A stretch of DNA of 38,702 nucleotides from Flammeovirga sp. SJP92 (GTDB taxonomy: Bacteria > Bacteroidota > Bacteroidia > Cytophagales > Flammeovirgaceae), in NCBI RefSeq assembly GCF_001583495.1, contig NZ_LQAQ01000019.1, positions 274,836 to 313,537 on the forward strand, read 5' to 3'. The position numbers were made by a program, and so were the translations under genes. The stretch's first letter is position 1. Every line of letters begins with the position of its first letter. Positions 30,355 to 38,702 of the stretch are shown one piece after another. The notes beneath the pieces were generated by a model that saw only the letters and a list, made by a program, of their open reading frames with translations, did no database searches and was not told the DNA's origin.

Positions 30355-31425
30355 ATGCAACAAAATCCAATAATCGGTACTTTATTACATGCAGTAGGAG
30401 GCGTTTCGGCATCTACTTGTTATGTGCCTTTTCAGAAAGTAAAGCAATGGAATTGGAATTCCTATTGGTTGATTCAGGCCGCTTTCGCTTGGTTTATTTT
30501 CCCTTTAGTTATTGGTTACATTACGGTACCTGATTTATGGGAAGTCTTCGCAGAATCGCCTTCTGAAGTGATCTTCAATGCTTTTCTTTTAGGGACGATT
30601 TATGGTTTTGGAGGCATGTGTTTCGGGTATGCTATTAAAGAAATTGGGTACTCACTTACCTATACCATTTCTATTGGTATCTCTGCCATTTTGGGTACGA
30701 TCGTGCCGTTGATTATGCATGGTGAATTGGTATCTAAATTCTATGAACCGGGTGGAAATATTATCTATCTGGGAATGTTTATCTCTCTTATTGGTATTGC
30801 ACTTTGTGGGGTTTCGGGGTATAGAAAAGAAAAAGATCTTAAAGCACTAAATATTGAAACAGGCGACCAACCTTCTTTTAATATGAAGAAAGGTTTTATG
30901 CTCACTTTAATTGCCGGTGTGCTTTCGGCGGTGTTTGGTATCTCATTAGAAGTAGGGGCTCCAATTGCTGAAATCGCAGGAAAACATGGGGCTGGTTATT
31001 TCGAAGGAAATGCCAATCTGATGTTATCGACAATGGGTGCTTTTGCGACGAACCTTGTTTGGTTTGTAGTTGTTGGAATTAAGCAAAAAACATTAAAAGA
31101 AATTGTGGATGTAAAAGGGCTTGGGTCAAAAACAATCGGCACCAACTTCCTAATGTCCATTCTAAGTGGTGCATTATGGTACGGGCAATTCTTCTTCTAC
31201 AATATGGCCCATGTGAGAATGGGTGATTTCAAATTTGCCAGCTGGGTGATTCATATGTCAATGCTCATTTTCTTCAGTTACATCTTGGGGATCTTGATGA
31301 AAGAATGGTCGCAAGTAAGCAAGCGAACTTACAATACATTACTCTTTGCCTTGGGCGTACTTATCATTTCTTTCTTAACCATGACTTACGGAAGTAGTAT
31401 GGGAACGGAAGCAATAGGGCATTAA
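30355..31425 (+). CDS. rhaT: RhaT-family sugar:H+ symporter
   Basis: This is a 356-residue inner-membrane protein with ten predicted helices, near E. coli RhaT (344). Landmarks match by eye: HAVGGVSASTCYVPFQKVKQW against [21 protein letters not shown], the GTIYGFGGMCFGYAIKEIGYS segment, and near the end LSGALWYGQFFFYNMAHVRMG with SWVIHMSMLIFF and LGILMKEW. RhaT imports L-rhamnose (and lyxose or mannose) with a proton. No rhamnose isomerase, kinase or aldolase follows, so here it may carry another deoxy sugar or sugar acid. It is the first gene of a tightly packed operon, 37 bases before the solute-binding-protein gene. A weak -7-like CATATTTG lies at its start. Confidence 0.85.
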   Translation: MQQNPIIGTLLHAVGGVSASTCYVPFQKVKQWNWNSYWLIQAAFAWFIFPLVIGYITVPDLWEVFAESPSEVIFNAFLLGTIYGFGGMCFGYAIKEIGYSLTYTISIGISAILGTIVPLIMHGELVSKFYEPGGNIIYLGMFISLIGIALCGVSGYRKEKDLKALNIETGDQPSFNMKKGFMLTLIAGVLSAVFGISLEVGAPIAEIAGKHGAGYFEGNANLMLSTMGAFATNLVWFVVVGIKQKTLKEIVDVKGLGSKTIGTNFLMSILSGALWYGQFFFYNMAHVRMGDFKFASWVIHMSMLIFFSYILGILMKEWSQVSKRTYNTLLFALGVLIISFLTMTYGSSMGTEAIGH

Positions 31426-31462
31426 TAAAAAGATACAATTAGACTAAAAATATTAAACTGAA

Positions 31463-32608
31463 ATGAAAAAGTTAAAAGGAATTACTTGGAACCACAGCCG
31501 TGGATTTACCTCAATAGTAGCCGTTTCACAGCGTTTTGAAGAGCTTTATCCTGATGTGCAAATCTCTTGGGAGAAAAGATCGCTCCAAGCATTTGCTGAT
31601 GAACCAATAGACCAATTGGCAGAAAGATATGACTTCTTGATTATCGATCATCCATGGGCCGGTTTTGCTGCCCGAACTCAAGTGATTATGCCTTTGGATA
31701 CTTTGCTTCCGCAAGATTTCATGAAAGATCTGGAAGAAAATACGGTGGGTAGATCACACGAAAGTTACGCTTACAATAATCATCAATGGGCATTGGCAAT
31801 TGACGCAGCAACTCCAGTTGCTTCTAGCCGTCCGGACCTTTTTGAAAAAGAAGGATTGAAGTTTCCTGAAACCTGGGATGATTTAGTAGAGTTATCGAAA
31901 ACTGGAAAAGTGGCAATTCCTGGTATTCCTCAAGATACATTGATGAGTTTCTACATGGTTTGCTCTACGTTAGGTGAAAATGTGTGTGAGACAAAAGAGT
32001 ATGTTGTTTCAGAAGAGGTTGGATTGAAAGCACTTCAGATGCTTCGTGATTTAGGAGAAAATATTAAAGAAGAAAGTTACGATTGGAACCCTATCAAAGT
32101 TTGTGAGGCCATGACCAAAACAGACGATTATGTATACGCTCCTTTCGGATATGGATATACGAATTACTCTCGTGAAGGCTATGCTCGTGTTCCTTTGAAA
32201 TACCATGATATGGTGGCCATCAACGATCAAAAACTGATCAGTACATTGGGCGGAACAGGCTTGGCTTTATCGTCTAAATGTGAAGAAAAAGAATTGGCTT
32301 CAAAATTCTTAGAGTTTGCAGGTTCTTTGGATGTTCAGAAGGGTATTTTCTTTGACAATGGTGGTCAGCCCGGACATAGAAAAGCTTGGACGGATCAGAG
32401 GGTAAACAGCAAGTGCATGGACTTCTTTAGCGATACACTTCCGGCTTTGGATCGTGCATTTTTAAGACCTCGTTACAACGGTCATATGTACTTCCAAGAT
32501 AGAGCCGGTGCACCGATTCGTGAATTTATGATGAAGGGTGGTGATCCCAAAACGCTCTTGTCACAATTAAATGAATTGTACATCAAATCGCTTTCTCAAA
32601 ATGACTAA
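31463..32608 (+). CDS. Solute-binding-protein fold without signal peptide (first of pair)
   Basis: This is a 381-residue protein of the extracellular solute-binding family 1 type. It has the usual start ([32 protein letters not shown]), [14 protein letters not shown], a hinge region [33 protein letters not shown], and a C-terminal helical region. The mature fold begins at residue 3: there is no hydrophobic signal or lipobox, and an in-frame TAA stands two codons before the ATG, so no longer form is possible. It must stay in the cytoplasm unless exported by an unknown route. It overlaps the first CoA-transferase gene by 8 bases (ATGACTAA). No ABC permease or ATPase is encoded nearby. The ligand is unknown; it could bind or shield the sugar-derived substrate of the CoA-transferases. 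Confidence 0.85.
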
Positions 32609-33749
32609 TTCAAAACCATTAGAGGGCCTTTTGGTGTTGGAATTCTGTCAGTTTTTGGCAGGTCCATCCGCAGGTTTGCGATTAGCAGATTTGGGGGCTC
32701 GCGTGATCAAAATTGAACGTCCAAATCATGGTGAAGCAGGTCGTCAGATAGCTATTAAAAATTTAAGAGTGGATGGAAGCAGTTTGGTTTTCCATACCCT
32801 CAATAGAAATAAAGAATCTTATGCCGCCAATTTAAAGGATGCGGAAGATCTACAAAAAGTAAAAGAACTTATCGCCAAAGCAGATGTGATGACCCACAAT
32901 TTCCGTCCGGGTGTGATGGAAAAAATTGGGTTGGACTACCCTACTGTCAAGGCGATCAACCCACAAATTGTATACGCGACTGTTACTGGTTATGGTACTG
33001 AAGGTCCTTGGTCTGCGAAACCCGGACAGGACCTTTTAGTACAGTGCATGTCGGGCTTGGCACACCTTACTGGTGATAAAAATGACGGCCCTACTCCTTT
33101 CGGATTGGCGGTCGCTGATATCATCACAGGGTCACATATGGCACAAGGGATTTTAGCCGCTTTGCTAAGAAGTGCCAAAACCAAGAAAGGTGCTTTCGTG
33201 GAAGTGAGCTTATTAGAATCAATGTTGGATTTCCAATTTGAAGTCATCACCACTTACCTCAACGATGGAAATAAACTTCCTCAACGAGCAGAAAAAGGAT
33301 CAGGACATGCCTACCTCAGTGCTCCTTACGGTGTTTACGCTACCAAAGACAGTCATATTTCTTTGGCAATGGGAGGCTTTGAAAAGCTAGTTGAATTGCT
33401 TGATACAGATCGATTAAGGGGGTATTCAGAAGAAGAGACGTTTACGAAGCGTGATGAAATTATGAATACACTTCGTGAAATACTAGCCACCAAAACAACT
33501 CAGGAATGGTTAGATATTTTCGAACCCGCTGGAATTTGGTGTTCAGCCGTTTTAGACTACGAACAATTGCTACAACATGAGGCTTATAAAGTATTGGAAA
33601 TGGATCAAAAACTACCACTTGATACAGGCGAGTTTATCCATACCACACGTTGTCCTATCCGCTTAAATGATGAGAAATTATTTGCATCAAAACCAGCTCC
33701 TAGAGTGGGTCAAGATACAGATGCGATTGCCAAAGAGTTTAACTTATAA
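32601..33749 (+). CDS. Class III (CaiB/BaiF) CoA-transferase, first copy
   Basis: This is a 382-residue protein started at the ATG at 32601 inside the stop of the preceding gene; an in-frame ATG 30 bases upstream lies within that gene and adds no conserved residue. Family III landmarks: [20 protein letters not shown] with RVIKIERP at the N-terminus, [27 protein letters not shown], and [14 protein letters not shown], where Asp144 is the likely catalytic aspartate that forms the acyl anhydride/CoA thioester. The later [15 protein letters not shown] is also typical. Such enzymes move CoA between carboxylic acids; relatives include racemases. The next gene encodes a close paralogue, so a heteromer is possible. 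Substrate unknown; a sugar-derived acid is inferred from context. Confidence 0.9.
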
Positions 33750-33759
33750 AGACAAAAAT

Positions 33760-34938
33760 ATGCTTCCATTAAAAGATATATTAGTAGTTGATCTAAGCCA
33801 GTTTTTGTCTGCTCCATCAGCTACACTCCGATTGGCAGATCTTGGTGCTAGAGTTATCAAAGTAGAACGCCCCGAAACAGGTGACATCTGCCGTCAGCTT
33901 TATGTTTCCAATGTGATGCTGAATGGTGAGTCTTCTGTTTTTAGAGCCATCAATAGAAATAAAGAGAGTTTTCAAGCCGATTTAAAATCGGATATCGATA
34001 AAGAAAAAGTACTAAAGCTTATCGCGAAAGCGGATGTTTTGGTACACAATTTCAGACCGGGTGTGATCGAACGTTTAGGATTGGATTATGATACGGTAAA
34101 AGCAATTAATCCTTCGATTGTTTACGGCGATATTTCTGGATATGGATCAGAAGGGCCATGGTCGGCCAAGCCAGGGCAAGATCTATTGCTTCAATCGTTA
34201 TCAGGTGTTACGTGGTTAAGCGGTAATGCCGATAAAGGACCGGTACCTATGGGGATTGCGATCGTCGATATTTTGGCGGGTGCTCACTTGGCACAAGGTC
34301 TCATCGCCTCCTTAATCAAAAGATTCAAAACCAATCAAGGAAGTAAGGTCTCAGTGAGTATGCTGGAATCGATTCTTGATTTCCAATTCGAAACGATCAC
34401 GACCTATTATCACGATGGTGGCGAACCTACAGTTAGAACTGCAAGCAATAATGCTCATGCTTATTTAGGTGCTCCTTATGGGGTTTACGCTACTAAAAAC
34501 GGTCATTTGGCATTGGCTATGGGTGCCATTCCTGTATTGGGAGAATTATTGAGCTGTCCATCATTGACCAACTACCCTGAGCCTGATACTTGGTTTACAC
34601 AGAGAGATGAAATCAAGAATATTTTAGCCGATCATTTACTGACTGAAACCACTGAACATTGGCTTTCGATTTTAGAACCTGCCGATATCTGGTGTGCAGA
34701 TGTATTGAATTGGGACACCCTTTTCAACCATGACGGTTTTAAAGCCCTCAACATGATTCAGAATGTAAAAATGGGCGATGGATTCGAGTACAAAACCACT
34801 CGTTGTCCTATTAAAATTGATGGAGAATACCTCACTTCCACATTAGGATCTCCTGCTATTGGAGAACATACGCAAGAAATTTTGAAAGAACTAAACGCTT
34901 TGGATCATGAAGGAAAAGTTGAGAATTGCTGTTCGTAA
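33760..34938 (+). CDS. Class III (CaiB/BaiF) CoA-transferase, second copy
   Basis: This is a 392-residue paralogue of the preceding gene, 10 bases downstream, begun at the ATG at 33760 ([10 protein letters not shown]); the frame is open further upstream but only through the previous gene. It shares long blocks with it, including [37 protein letters not shown] (Asp141 catalytic), [20 protein letters not shown] segments and TTRCPI near the end, so the pair arose by duplication. Both keep the catalytic Asp, so neither is obviously inactive. The 3' end overlaps the second solute-binding gene by 32 bases, which points to translational coupling. A heterodimer or sequential action on two related acids is possible. 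Confidence 0.9.
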
Positions 34939-36142
34939 ATTCGGACCTTTTGAAAGTGCTATCCAAAAGATTTGGGACGACTTCTGCTCACAGCGTGCAT
35001 GTGATGTTGAATTGGAAGCTGTACCAATGGACTTGCACCCTCTTTATGATACTATTTTAAAAGAGGATGGTTTGAAGAACGGCGAATGGGACATTGCATT
35101 AATGAATACCGATTGGATAACGGAAGCTTACAGCAATAATGCCATCGCTGATTTAATGCCTTTTATGGGTAATGATTCCTCTGCTTTGGAAGAGGCATGG
35201 AGTCCTTCTCTTTTAGGAAAACAACGTTTCGGTAATGCAGTAATGGGACTTCCATTTCACAATGGTCCTGAGTGCTTAATGTACAGAACAGACCTTTTTG
35301 AAGATCCAAAAGAACAAGAGGCTTTCAAGAAAAAATACAACAGAGCACTGACGGTTCCCAAAACATGGAACGAGTTGATGGAAGTCGCTTCTTTCTTCCA
35401 CCGTCCTCAGGCAGGTTTATACGGAACTACTTTCGCCGCTTACCCTGATGGTCATAATACCGTCTTTGATTTCTGCCTTCAATTATGGACAAGAGGTGGA
35501 CAATTAATTACTGAAGATGATAAAGTAGTTCTTCATTCGAAAGCGACTGTTGAAGGCATGAAATTCTACCGTAAAGCTTTACAAAACAAAGAGGCCATTC
35601 ACCCTAAATCAAGAGAATTTGATTCTGTAGAAGCTGGTTTGGCGTTCGCCAATGGTGAGTTAGCCTTAAGTGTCAACTGGTTTGGCTTTGCAGCCAACTG
35701 CGAAGTGAGCCCTGATTCAAAAGTAAAAGGCAAAGTGGATGTGGCTTACATCCCTGCCGGAGAAGGTGGCGAAGGCGTTTCTCTCAATGCCTATTGGATG
35801 TACGTGATTGGAGCAGGCAGTAAGCATCAACAATTGGCTTACGACTTTATTCAATTTGCTACTTCAGTTAAAAACGACGAGCTCTTGACTTTAGAGGGAG
35901 GCATCGGGTGTAGAGTTTCGACTTGGAGAAGTCCAAAGGTCAATCAAGAAATACCTTATTATCATAAACTAGAAGAACTGCATCAAAACACCGAATCACT
36001 TCCTCGAATGAACAATTGGTCGCAGGTCGCAGACATCATCGACGAGTTAGTGCTGAAGGTGATCAATACAGAAGAAGACATCGAAAATATCTTAGCTACT
36101 GCACAGGAGAAAGTGGATCATTTGGAGCTTGTGAATACATAA
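34907..36142 (+). CDS. Solute-binding-protein fold without signal peptide (second of pair)
   Basis: This is a 411-residue protein of the extracellular solute-binding type: [94 protein letters not shown] and [20 protein letters not shown] all fit family 1 sugar-binding proteins. It starts directly with the first strand ([13 protein letters not shown]); an in-frame TAA five codons upstream excludes a signal peptide. It overlaps the CoA-transferase gene by 32 bases. It differs clearly from the first solute-binding protein and is not a simple duplicate. Its conserved aromatic and acidic pocket residues suggest it still binds a sugar-like ligand. No ABC transporter partner is present. Cytoplasmic function is inferred and not shown. 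Confidence 0.85.
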
Positions 36143-36331: not shown

Positions 36332-37405
36332 ATGGAAATAAATTATCAATATACCCTACCAAAAACAGCCCGCCCGATCATCATCATCGGAGCAGGAGGT
36401 ATTGTCAACGATGCACATATGCCCGCTTATAGAAAAGCTGGATTTGAAGTATATGGCATCACCAACAGAACAAAAGAACGAGCAGAAAAAATAGCAAAGA
36501 AATTTGACATTCCTAGAGTATTTGACAGCATCGATGATGCCATAGCTCAAGCTCCAGAGAATGCCGTTTTCGACCTTACACTCATGCCAAATCAGTTTGT
36601 TGCCACCTTAGAAAAACTACCTGATGGCGCCCCAGTTCTGATTCAAAAACCTTTAGGTGATTACTTTGAACAAACGAAACAAATCATCGAAGTCTGTAGA
36701 AGAAAAAAGCTTATCGCAGCCGTAAACTGTCAGTTGCGTTTTGCCCCTTACATCATGGCGGCACGTGATCTGATCAACAAAGAAACCATCGGCAAAATCT
36801 ACGATATGGAAGTGAAGGTTTCGGTATATACTCCATGGGAAATCTTCCCTAACGTAATGTATCACCCGAGATTAGAAATCCAACAGCACAGTATTCACCA
36901 CATCGATTTGGTAAGATCATTTTTGGGTGATCCAAAAGGAATTATGGCGAAAACCTTAAAGCACCCTGCCAAAGAAATGTCGTCTACTCGTACCAATGTC
37001 ATCATGGAATATGAAGATGATGTACGTGCATTAGTCAGCACCAACCACGATCACGTTTTTGGGTTTGATCATCAAGAAAGCTATGTAAAATGGGAAGGTA
37101 CAAAAGGTGCTATCTATGCTAAAATGGGCCTTTTGATGAACTACCCCGATGGTGTGCCAGACGCTTTTGAATACTGCATTTTAGAGGAAGGGAAAAAACC
37201 AGAGTGGAAAACCAAACAATTGGAAGGGTCATGGTTCCCTGATGCTTTTATCGGCACCATGTCTTCATTGATCTGTTATGCCAACGGAGAATCTGACCAA
37301 TTGGATACTTCTATTGAAGATATTTTGAAAACCATGCATGTGGTAGAAGCTGCGTATAAGTCGAGCGATATGGGTGGAGTGAAACCAGAATATGGATCGA
37401 TTTAA
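36332..37405 (+). CDS. Gfo/Idh/MocA family NAD(P)-dependent oxidoreductase
   Basis: This is a 357-residue protein with an N-terminal Rossmann domain (PIIIIGAGGIVNDAHMPAYRK at about 15-35, then GITNRTKERAEKIA), the family lysine motif LIQKPLGDYFEQ (usually EKP), and a C-terminal alpha/beta dimerisation domain with MYHPRLEIQQHSIHHIDLVRS, where His residues sit at the substrate site. These enzymes oxidise or reduce hydroxyls of sugars, inositols or sugar acids. It is 189 bases after the CoA-transferase operon and the same strand, with two REPs in between, so it may be a separate transcript of the same pathway. The following gene is another dehydrogenase. Substrate unknown. Confidence 0.88.
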   Translation: MEINYQYTLPKTARPIIIIGAGGIVNDAHMPAYRKAGFEVYGITNRTKERAEKIAKKFDIPRVFDSIDDAIAQAPENAVFDLTLMPNQFVATLEKLPDGAPVLIQKPLGDYFEQTKQIIEVCRRKKLIAAVNCQLRFAPYIMAARDLINKETIGKIYDMEVKVSVYTPWEIFPNVMYHPRLEIQQHSIHHIDLVRSFLGDPKGIMAKTLKHPAKEMSSTRTNVIMEYEDDVRALVSTNHDHVFGFDHQESYVKWEGTKGAIYAKMGLLMNYPDGVPDAFEYCILEEGKKPEWKTKQLEGSWFPDAFIGTMSSLICYANGESDQLDTSIEDILKTMHVVEAAYKSSDMGGVKPEYGSI

Positions 37406-37785: not shown

Positions 37786-38702
37786 ATGAAAGCATCATTA
37801 TACGAAGGAAATCAAACCTTCACTGTTGTTGAAAAAGAAATAGAAGCACCTGCTGCAGGTGAGGTGAGAATTAAAGTAGCCTATTGTGGGGTGTGCGGTA
37901 CCGATGTACATATTTATCATGGTATGATGGACAAGCGTGTCAGCATTCCTGTAACGATCGGGCATGAAATGTCGGGTACGGTAGATGCGGTTGGTGAAGG
38001 TGTGGAAGGGTTTCGTGTGGGCGAAAAAATCACAGTTCGTCCATTAGACAACAGAGGTGAAACGCCTGCTGATAAAGGACACAGTCATATTGCAAAAGCA
38101 TTGAAGTTTATCGGAATTGACAGCCCAGGCGCCATGCAACAATATTGGAATGTTCCTGCTTTCACATTGCATAAACTGAAAGAGGAAACGGACCTTAAGT
38201 TAGCGGCACTTATTGAGCCTCTATCAGTAGCTTGCCATGATGTACGCATGAGTAAATTGAAAAAAGGCGAAGTGGCCGTTGTTTTAGGTGGAGGTCCTAT
38301 CGGTTTGCTTGTTGCAATGGTGGCCAAAAGCAAAGGAGCTAGAGTTATTATTTCAGAAGTGAATGATGCTAGAATTAAAATGGCAGAAGACATGGGCTTT
38401 GAAGTAGTCAATCCTGTCATCACTGATTTAGTAGCCTATGTTGACCAACAAACAGAAGGCGGATTAGCGGATGTTGTATTCGAAGTAGCTGGCGTGCAAG
38501 CTTCATTAGATGTAATGACGGAAGTGGCAGGTATCCGTGGCCGTATTGTAATGGTGGCCATTCATGGAGAGAAAAAGCCCGTGGACCTGTTTAAGTTCTT
38601 CTGGAAAGAATTAGAGTTGATTGGTGCTCGTGTCTACGAAAAAGAAGATTACGAAGAGTCAATCCAATTGATCACAGAAAACAAATACAATTTCGATAAG
38701 AT
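37786..38702 (+). CDS. Zinc-dependent medium-chain dehydrogenase lacking the structural-zinc cysteines, 3' truncated
   Basis: The frame opens at ATG 37786 and runs 305 codons to the window edge with no stop, leaving out about 40-50 residues by comparison with the family. It is a MDR-type alcohol/polyol dehydrogenase: catalytic zinc Cys37 in YCGVCGTDVHIYHG, GHEMSGTVDAVG with His60 and Glu61, and the Rossmann motif VVLGGGPIGLLVAMVAKSKGA. The usual four-cysteine structural-zinc loop is absent; the equivalent stretch (about 85-125, PLDNRGETPADKGHSH onwards) contains no Cys. Relatives act on threonine, sorbitol or other polyols with NAD(P). Same strand as Gfo/Idh, 380 bases away beyond REPIN repeats, and probably part of the same sugar pathway. 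Confidence 0.88.
   Translation, partial: MKASLYEGNQTFTVVEKEIEAPAAGEVRIKVAYCGVCGTDVHIYHGMMDKRVSIPVTIGHEMSGTVDAVGEGVEGFRVGEKITVRPLDNRGETPADKGHSHIAKALKFIGIDSPGAMQQYWNVPAFTLHKLKEETDLKLAALIEPLSVACHDVRMSKLKKGEVAVVLGGGPIGLLVAMVAKSKGARVIISEVNDARIKMAEDMGFEVVNPVITDLVAYVDQQTEGGLADVVFEVAGVQASLDVMTEVAGIRGRIVMVAIHGEKKPVDLFKFFWKELELIGARVYEKEDYEESIQLITENKYNFDK

Follow-up and report, generated by a model that had tools for sequence, protein, structure and literature searches.

Leaderless solute-binding proteins encoded beside CoA-transferases point to a possible undescribed route for the breakdown of unusual sugars

Why should solute-binding proteins (SBPs) be encoded without an export signal, in one operon with CoA-transferases? 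The question is raised by a 38,702-nucleotide stretch of DNA (the window; G000:C19:274836-313537) from a seaweed-degrading bacterium, the end of which coincides with a contig end of an 8.49-Mb Flammeovirga-like genome. The window encodes two such proteins (SBP1 and SBP2) together with two family III CoA-transferases (CaiB1 and CaiB2). The pairing of SBP1 with CaiB recurs in distant bacteria and points to an undescribed route for the breakdown of unusual sugars. The explanation we favour, to which we give a probability of about 0.45, is that the operon's products break down the acid of an L-fucose/L-galactose-like sugar in the cytoplasm by way of CoA thioesters, with SBP1 as the acid-binding partner of the CoA-transferase.

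Relatives were scanned with one genome per species, and the best 80 of 330 SBP1 relatives were taken for neighbourhood clustering (SBP1 has 5402 scored database matches in total, which is not a count of module members). CaiB adjoins SBP1 in 79 of these 80 loci; the adjacency is therefore not a matter of chance. A sample of the window's phylum, less bound to similarity rank, has SBP1 in 19 of 395 genomes and 10 of 171 genera, a patchy distribution, and outside the window's own genome CaiB lies beside SBP1 in 17/18 cases (19/20 with the two own-genome copies included). The sample's exception (L131; G286:C11, 6885-8045) is an SBP1 relative, 50% identical, found with an IclR gene and with no CaiB in a 15-kb stretch. 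Searching plasmids with tblastn gave 151 records, predominantly rhizobial, and a second query reached further subfamilies. We opened 22 plasmid loci, 21 of which have SBP1; in 20 of the 21 CaiB is adjacent on the same strand, frequently overlapping by a few bases. A preliminary description of the window had proposed a search for conserved SBP–CaiB neighbourhoods, and the pairing does recur. The core it envisaged, SBP-CaiB-CaiB-SBP, is too broad: SBP1-CaiB is conserved, but SBP2 is optional and occurs in 36/80 loci. Two CaiB genes are present in Bacteroidota and gammaproteobacterial relatives, one in most alphaproteobacterial loci opened.

The operon and the genes that follow it in the window are:

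30355..31425, forward strand: RhaT-like sugar/proton symporter (PF06379; Pfam and NCBIfam profiles)
31463..32608, forward strand: SBP1, SBP_bac_1 protein without signal, 381 amino acids (PF01547/PF13416; Pfam)
32601..33749, forward strand: CaiB1, family III CoA-transferase (PF02515, 343 bits; Pfam), motif ADIITG
33760..34938, forward strand: CaiB2, family III CoA-transferase (PF02515, 315 bits; Pfam), motif VDILAG
34907..36142, forward strand: SBP2, second SBP_bac_1 protein without signal, 411 amino acids (PF01547/PF13416; Pfam)
36332..37405, forward strand: Gfo/Idh/MocA dehydrogenase (Pfam)
37786..38700, forward strand: zinc-dependent dehydrogenase (Zn-ADH), truncated by the window and contig end (Pfam)

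The starts of CaiB1 and CaiB2 are internal ATG codons at 32601 and 33760; the mechanical open reading frames begin further upstream. The single-strand order RhaT, SBP, CaiB, CaiB, SBP given earlier is matched by the reading frames and by Pfam, and the spacings of +37, -8, +10 and -32 agree exactly with the coordinates. By NCBIfam equivalog scoring the symporter does not qualify as a true L-rhamnose RhaT, its best score being 300 bits against a cut-off of 468. In close relatives the operon is followed by genes for a short-chain dehydrogenase/reductase (SDR), a MaoC hydratase and an IclR regulator, which the preliminary description could not see because the window stops at the contig end.

Are the SBPs really cytoplasmic? 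Both carry the SBP_bac_1 domain (54 and 91 bits in Pfam; cut-off 26). At an E-value of 0.001 their Pfam matches are limited to PF01547 and PF13416, with no non-transport family of the periplasmic-binding-protein (PBP) fold, and the Pfam scan of the window proteins gave them no TctC match. BLASTP finds no significant match between SBP2 and SBP1; the closest match of SBP2 among those listed is from Flammeovirga sp. EKP202 (96% identical). Public records call such proteins ‘extracellular solute-binding protein’ or ‘ABC transporter substrate-binding protein’. Family membership, and the ABC importers near the module in many Proteobacteria, would suit ordinary periplasmic ABC receptors whose starts have been mis-called or whose export is unconventional. 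Against this, in-frame TAA codons lie at 31454-31456, two sense codons ahead of the start of SBP1, and at 34892-34894, four sense codons ahead of that of SBP2. In profile alignments with solved chains, position 61 of SBP1 aligns to residue 64 of 1eu8 and position 34 of SBP2 to residue 32 of 6dtq. When the first 40 residues were scanned in proteins trimmed to the homologous start, a leader-like hydrophobic stretch was found in 0/95 SBP1 and 0/40 SBP2 sequences, and in 6/6 control importer SBPs; the conserved first motif lies at most 7 residues from that start in all trimmed SBPs. Only the L080 SBP1 gains a hydrophobic extension, at its longest possible start, and later starts avoid it. The upstream stops, the start at the mature fold and the absence of signal peptides had all been claimed before and all stand, the last throughout the relatives as well as in the window.

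A whole-genome profile search (E 0.001) of the window's own genome located four PF02515 and three PF01547 proteins, all within two clusters; the second (C43:59360-63304) has the order SBP1-CaiB-CaiB, with an aldehyde dehydrogenase (ALDH) and a crotonase alongside. Four PF00528 permeases are encoded genome-wide, on contigs C18 and C87. None is on the contig of either cluster, in keeping with the earlier remark that no ABC permease is near. By best NCBIfam model two of them are of oligopeptide/nickel type, one of nitrate/taurine type and one of molybdate type, in every case with a score under the curated cut-off. Since these best matches are all non-sugar, there appears to be no sugar importer of this type for the SBPs to serve; the search for a sugar-type permease covered the PF00528 proteins, other permease families and ABC ATPases lying outside it. 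An ABC sugar importer, which the preliminary description would have counted against its proposal if co-conserved with the SBPs, is often near the module in Proteobacteria, but it has its own SBP in the five examples read. We consider periplasmic receptors highly improbable. A separate sugar cluster of the same genome (L211; G000:C37:55000-70000) has a UxaA-type dehydratase and a fuconolactonase-like gene and, by look, KDPG-aldolase-like, mutarotase-like, MFS permease, Zn-ADH and aldo-keto-reductase-like genes; neither SBP nor CaiB gave a match inside it.

If the SBPs stay in the cytoplasm, do they bind or do they catalyse? Sixty positions are at least 97% conserved over 95 SBP1 sequences, proteobacterial members at 31-37% identity included, and many of the highly conserved positions are W, H, R, D, Y or Q. 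These residues and the missing leaders would fit PBP-fold enzymes, SBP1 (and SBP2) acting for example as a lyase, dehydratase or epimerase on a sugar acid or CoA ester; MqnA, MqnD and HemC are cytoplasmic enzymes on this general fold. Pfam, however, gives SBP_bac_1/8 only, the PDB matches are named sugar-binding or substrate-binding proteins, the operon already has a hydratase, and we know of no catalytic motif for the SBP1 subfamily. We hold catalytic SBPs to be somewhat unlikely and prefer an SBP1 that only binds.

CoA_transf_3 spans the full length of CaiB1 and CaiB2, and both align almost end to end with solved CoA-transferases; they share 53.6% identity. The aspartate of the ADIITG/VDILAG motif, which we take to be the catalytic position of family III CoA-transferases, is present in 79/79 CaiB1 and 93/93 CaiB2 sequences. 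CaiB1 and CaiB2 are naturally fused in four Hymenobacter loci, with the aspartate retained in both halves, which suggests that the two proteins form a heteromer. A midpoint-rooted tree of a subset of sequences, drawn without support values, places CaiB1 and CaiB2 in clades of their own; one Croceibacterium sequence sits beside CaiB1 and the remaining single CaiBs of Proteobacteria branch outside both, a pattern such as a duplication would be expected to leave.

The neighbourhoods fall into two types. Type A (36/80), defined by SBP2, comprises SBP1, CaiB1, CaiB2, SBP2 and Gfo/Idh, a Gfo/Idh relative accompanying SBP2 in 36/36; a RhaT relative is present in 30/36, MaoC was detected in 24/36, Zn-ADH and a KduD-like SDR are often added, and an IclR-family regulator is encoded on the opposite strand. 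FucP takes the place of RhaT in some relatives. Type B (41/80), defined by crotonase (ECH) and ALDH with no SBP2, comprises SBP1, CaiB1, CaiB2, crotonase and an AldA-like ALDH, often with a GH2 gene preceding SBP1. The other 3/80 loci match neither type. For the 72 of 77 labelled loci that have SBP1, CaiB1 and CaiB2, the type label changes 4 times on the SBP1 tree, 4 on the CaiB1 tree and 5 on the CaiB2 tree, against about 24 if shuffled (trees again without support values). The block of SBP1, CaiB1 and CaiB2 thus travels together. The same trees had been considered as a test for the member that sets specificity, but the three were not separable. Flavobacterium sp. UMI-01 has a type A cluster with CaiB1, CaiB2, SBP2, Gfo and MaoC and without SBP1 and, about 11 kb away, a type B cluster with SBP1, crotonase and ALDH and without CaiB; a search of its genome found one SBP1 and two CaiBs in total. 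We read this single case as one shared SBP1+CaiB1+CaiB2 unit that would serve both branches.

An IclR-type regulator (cluster c2) is present in 51/90 loci. Its frequency, and the sugar-binding fold, would also suit SBPs that are free cytoplasmic sensors or buffers of a sugar acid, regulating the pathway and not working with CaiB. The regulator slot is already occupied, however; SBP1 follows CaiB more closely than it follows IclR, and the stretches of S. meliloti and S. medicae that were opened have the CaiB-SBP1 pair only, with no neighbouring IclR. We therefore rate this role as very unlikely and return to SBP1 as partner of the CoA-transferase.

Which sugar would such a route serve? In one genus group, which we take to be Flavobacterium-like, eight genomes have the module with FucP divergent from genes for L-fucose dehydrogenase, lactonase and Zn-ADH (8/8); an FAH hydrolase gene is at this locus in 7/8. 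Curated cut-offs are exceeded in L123 by L-fucose dehydrogenase (357 against 300) and FucP (364 against 280). More widely, GH29, agarase and sulfatase genes lie near module loci: GH29 in 6/36 type A and 2/41 type B loci, and agar genes near type B, where the GH50 query matched in 10/41 and the GH2 query in 29/41 loci and there is also an Agarase_CBM match. The agar genes suggest that the type B substrate may be L-galactose or 3,6-anhydro-L-galactose (AHG). A GH117 label for cluster c23 was given by look only and was set aside, since Pfam says GH43 (42 bits). L-fucose, L-galactose and AHG have the L-galacto configuration in common, and this would account for one SBP1+CaiB1+CaiB2 unit that could serve several sugars. 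Near the module in six loci (L037, L038, L046, L059, L065 and L069) are genes for a P450, ferredoxin, ferredoxin reductase and alcohol dehydrogenase, by look presumably the genes with which porphyran degraders demethylate 6-O-methyl-galactose.

AHG as the sole type B substrate is weakened by one report (PMC6581685), according to which Flammeovirga species have a cycloisomerase gene for 3,6-anhydro-L-galactonate (AHGA), assayed jointly with AHG dehydrogenase in F. pacifica, and a second dehydrogenase, AHGAD4649, which may or may not be the type B ALDH, showed no activity. The type B GH2 protein might be an agarolytic beta-galactosidase like VejABG (PMC5943477).

Over stretches of 12-21 kb, four tblastn queries found an MLE-type gene in 0/36 type A and 6/41 type B loci, and no MLE was found beside the divergent L-fucose locus in the eight Flavobacterium-like genomes. 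PF13378 searches of these genomes returned few proteins: 7/8 have two short MLEs and one of enolase length (with a below-cut-off extra in G202); the short ones scanned, those of G170 and G343, are DgcA- and MenC-like, and G021 has a galactonate-dehydratase-like MLE. One could propose, as an extension of the favoured explanation and not as its exclusive competitor, that the SBP-CaiB-hydratase set is a CoA-dependent substitute for an aldonate dehydratase or cycloisomerase of the enolase superfamily: L-fuconate dehydratase in type A, AHGA cycloisomerase in type B. The scarcity of MLEs, and the position of the module opposite the oxidative L-fucose genes, would fit. Several observations do not. 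The L-fucose-type locus of G206 (L187) keeps Gfo/Idh and FucP without SBP1, CaiB1, CaiB2, SBP2 or MaoC, and that genome has an equally poor MLE set (two short, one of enolase length). Each of the nine genomes with the locus (the eight and G206) also carries one or two UxaA-type (PF04295) genes at other sites, and a UxaA-type gene occupies the dehydratase slot in L188/L189. Module parts and an MLE occur together in seven proteobacterial or archaeal loci, and the assayed Flammeovirga cycloisomerase also speaks against the proposal for type B. Because of G206, the UxaA-type genes and the loci with both module and MLE, we keep such a substitution as a rival only and think it quite unlikely.

In other lineages, 19/21 plasmid stretches gave a MaoC or crotonase relative (the MaoC of L098 was itself a query), Streptomyces (L115) has the order CaiB-SBP1-crotonase, and the Flammeovirga MaoC is 60-67% identical to those of six proteobacterial loci (L102, L106, L107, L108, L111 and L117). 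Five proteobacterial clusters encode an MLE dehydratase, L-rhamnose mutarotase, Gfo/Idh and MaoC, with an amidohydrolase in three; from this gene content we read them as probable L-fucose-type catabolic clusters. In the haloarchaeal cluster on a plasmid of Halostagnicola larsenii (L103), an SBP2 relative is found with a CoA transferase, an AMP-binding ligase-like protein, MaoC, Gfo/Idh, L-rhamnose mutarotase and alpha-L-fucosidase; SBP1 was not found in this cluster. On a Jannaschia plasmid (L116) SBP1 stands beside an SDR and an alcohol dehydrogenase; genes for a CoA transferase, crotonase, ALDH and IclR lie a few kb off, on the other strand.

The relatives' operons thus include a CoA hydratase, and on this ground we regard CoA activation of an acid as likely; from knowledge of the families, formation of a CoA thioester followed by hydration or dehydration is the likely sequence. 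That the substrate is a sugar acid, and what the SBPs do, we infer. In the favoured explanation the sugar would enter through the RhaT-like symporter, or through FucP in some relatives, and dehydrogenases (with a lactonase in relatives) would oxidise it to the sugar acid. SBP1, an SBP_bac_1 fold kept in the cytoplasm as an obligate partner, would capture the polyhydroxylated acid and hand it to CaiB1/CaiB2, probably heteromeric, for transfer of CoA. The next step would fall to the hydratase of each branch, MaoC for type A and crotonase for type B, which would remove water or open a ring; further dehydrogenases would complete the route, and SBP2 may be an extra binder linked to the Gfo/Idh branch. 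The preliminary description had proposed a pathway of this kind, and it is supported in part: the absent leaders favour its cytoplasmic SBPs, its CoA activation is likely, and RhaT keeps its place, though FucP can replace it. A bolder form has a cytoplasmic ABC-type receptor as the obligate, specificity-setting subunit of a heteromer of family III CoA-transferases; this heteromer would load aldonic acids of L-galacto configuration (L-fuconate, L-galactonate and AHGA) onto CoA, and MaoC or crotonase would then perform the beta-elimination for which metal-dependent enzymes of the enolase superfamily are otherwise responsible. Were that so, sugar-acid breakdown would have a further chemical logic of its own, in at least three bacterial phyla and with haloarchaea touched as well. 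This bolder form seems to us doubtful.

Several points weigh against the favoured explanation. SBP1 is without an adjoining CaiB in L048, L116 and L131, and no SBP-CaiB fusion is seen among 20 matches, the longest open frame being 443 amino acids; co-location is evidence of a shared pathway, not of contact. The reading as L-fucose rests on neighbouring genes: FAH was not found in L126, and the lactonase (268 against 400) and FAH hydrolase (378 against 500) of L123 fall below curated cut-offs. The agar link is not confined to type B, since GH50 and GH2 matches turn up in 3/36 and 13/36 type A loci as well. Conservation rates (SBP1 67%, CaiB1 63%, CaiB2 65% in the 80 genome loci) were abandoned as a mark of an enzyme-like SBP, because in six proteobacterial loci the importer's own SBP is more conserved (72.5%) than SBP1 (61.5%).

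Were the explanation true, the annotation of genes now named transport receptors would change, CoA-thioester chemistry would be added to algal-sugar degradation and to rhizobial L-sugar use, and there would be a testable example of a transport receptor that has become an enzyme partner. Full-text searching of open-licence PubMed Central, a scope that leaves out subscription papers, brought up no description of the SBP-CaiB pairing recognisable by title or abstract.

Known systems resemble the module in parts. The window SBPs are like the CUT1 ABC sugar-binding proteins (trehalose/maltose-binding 1eu8, 6dtq) in Pfam family, length and sequence match; unlike these, they lack a signal peptide, the PF00528 search of the genome found them no sugar-type permease, and they are tied to CoA-transferases. 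In Bordetella-type bacteria, orphan Bug/TctC receptors stand beside CoA-transferase genes; there too an SBP adjoins CaiB, but those receptors are exported members of the TctC family, whereas the window proteins are SBP_bac_1 and leaderless. The oxidative L-fucose pathway proceeds through L-fucose dehydrogenase, fuconolactonase, fuconate dehydratase and a 2,4-diketo hydrolase. Counterparts of its dehydrogenase, lactonase and hydrolase flank the module in the Flavobacterium-like genomes as described, but these genomes show the SBP/CaiB/MaoC set with no MLE found alongside. Succinyl-CoA:mesaconate CoA-transferase and mesaconyl-CoA hydratase reportedly form a family III CoA-transferase route with a MaoC hydratase, and the RipA/RipB itaconate route likewise combines a family III CoA-transferase with a MaoC hydratase. 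Both have a CaiB-type transferase and MaoC in one neighbourhood, as do the relatives' operons; the module differs in its sugar-catabolic context, duplicated CaiB and SBP-fold partner, and no lyase was identified in it. The component families and the CaiB-with-MaoC routes are thus already known, and the new element is the cytoplasmic SBP partner.

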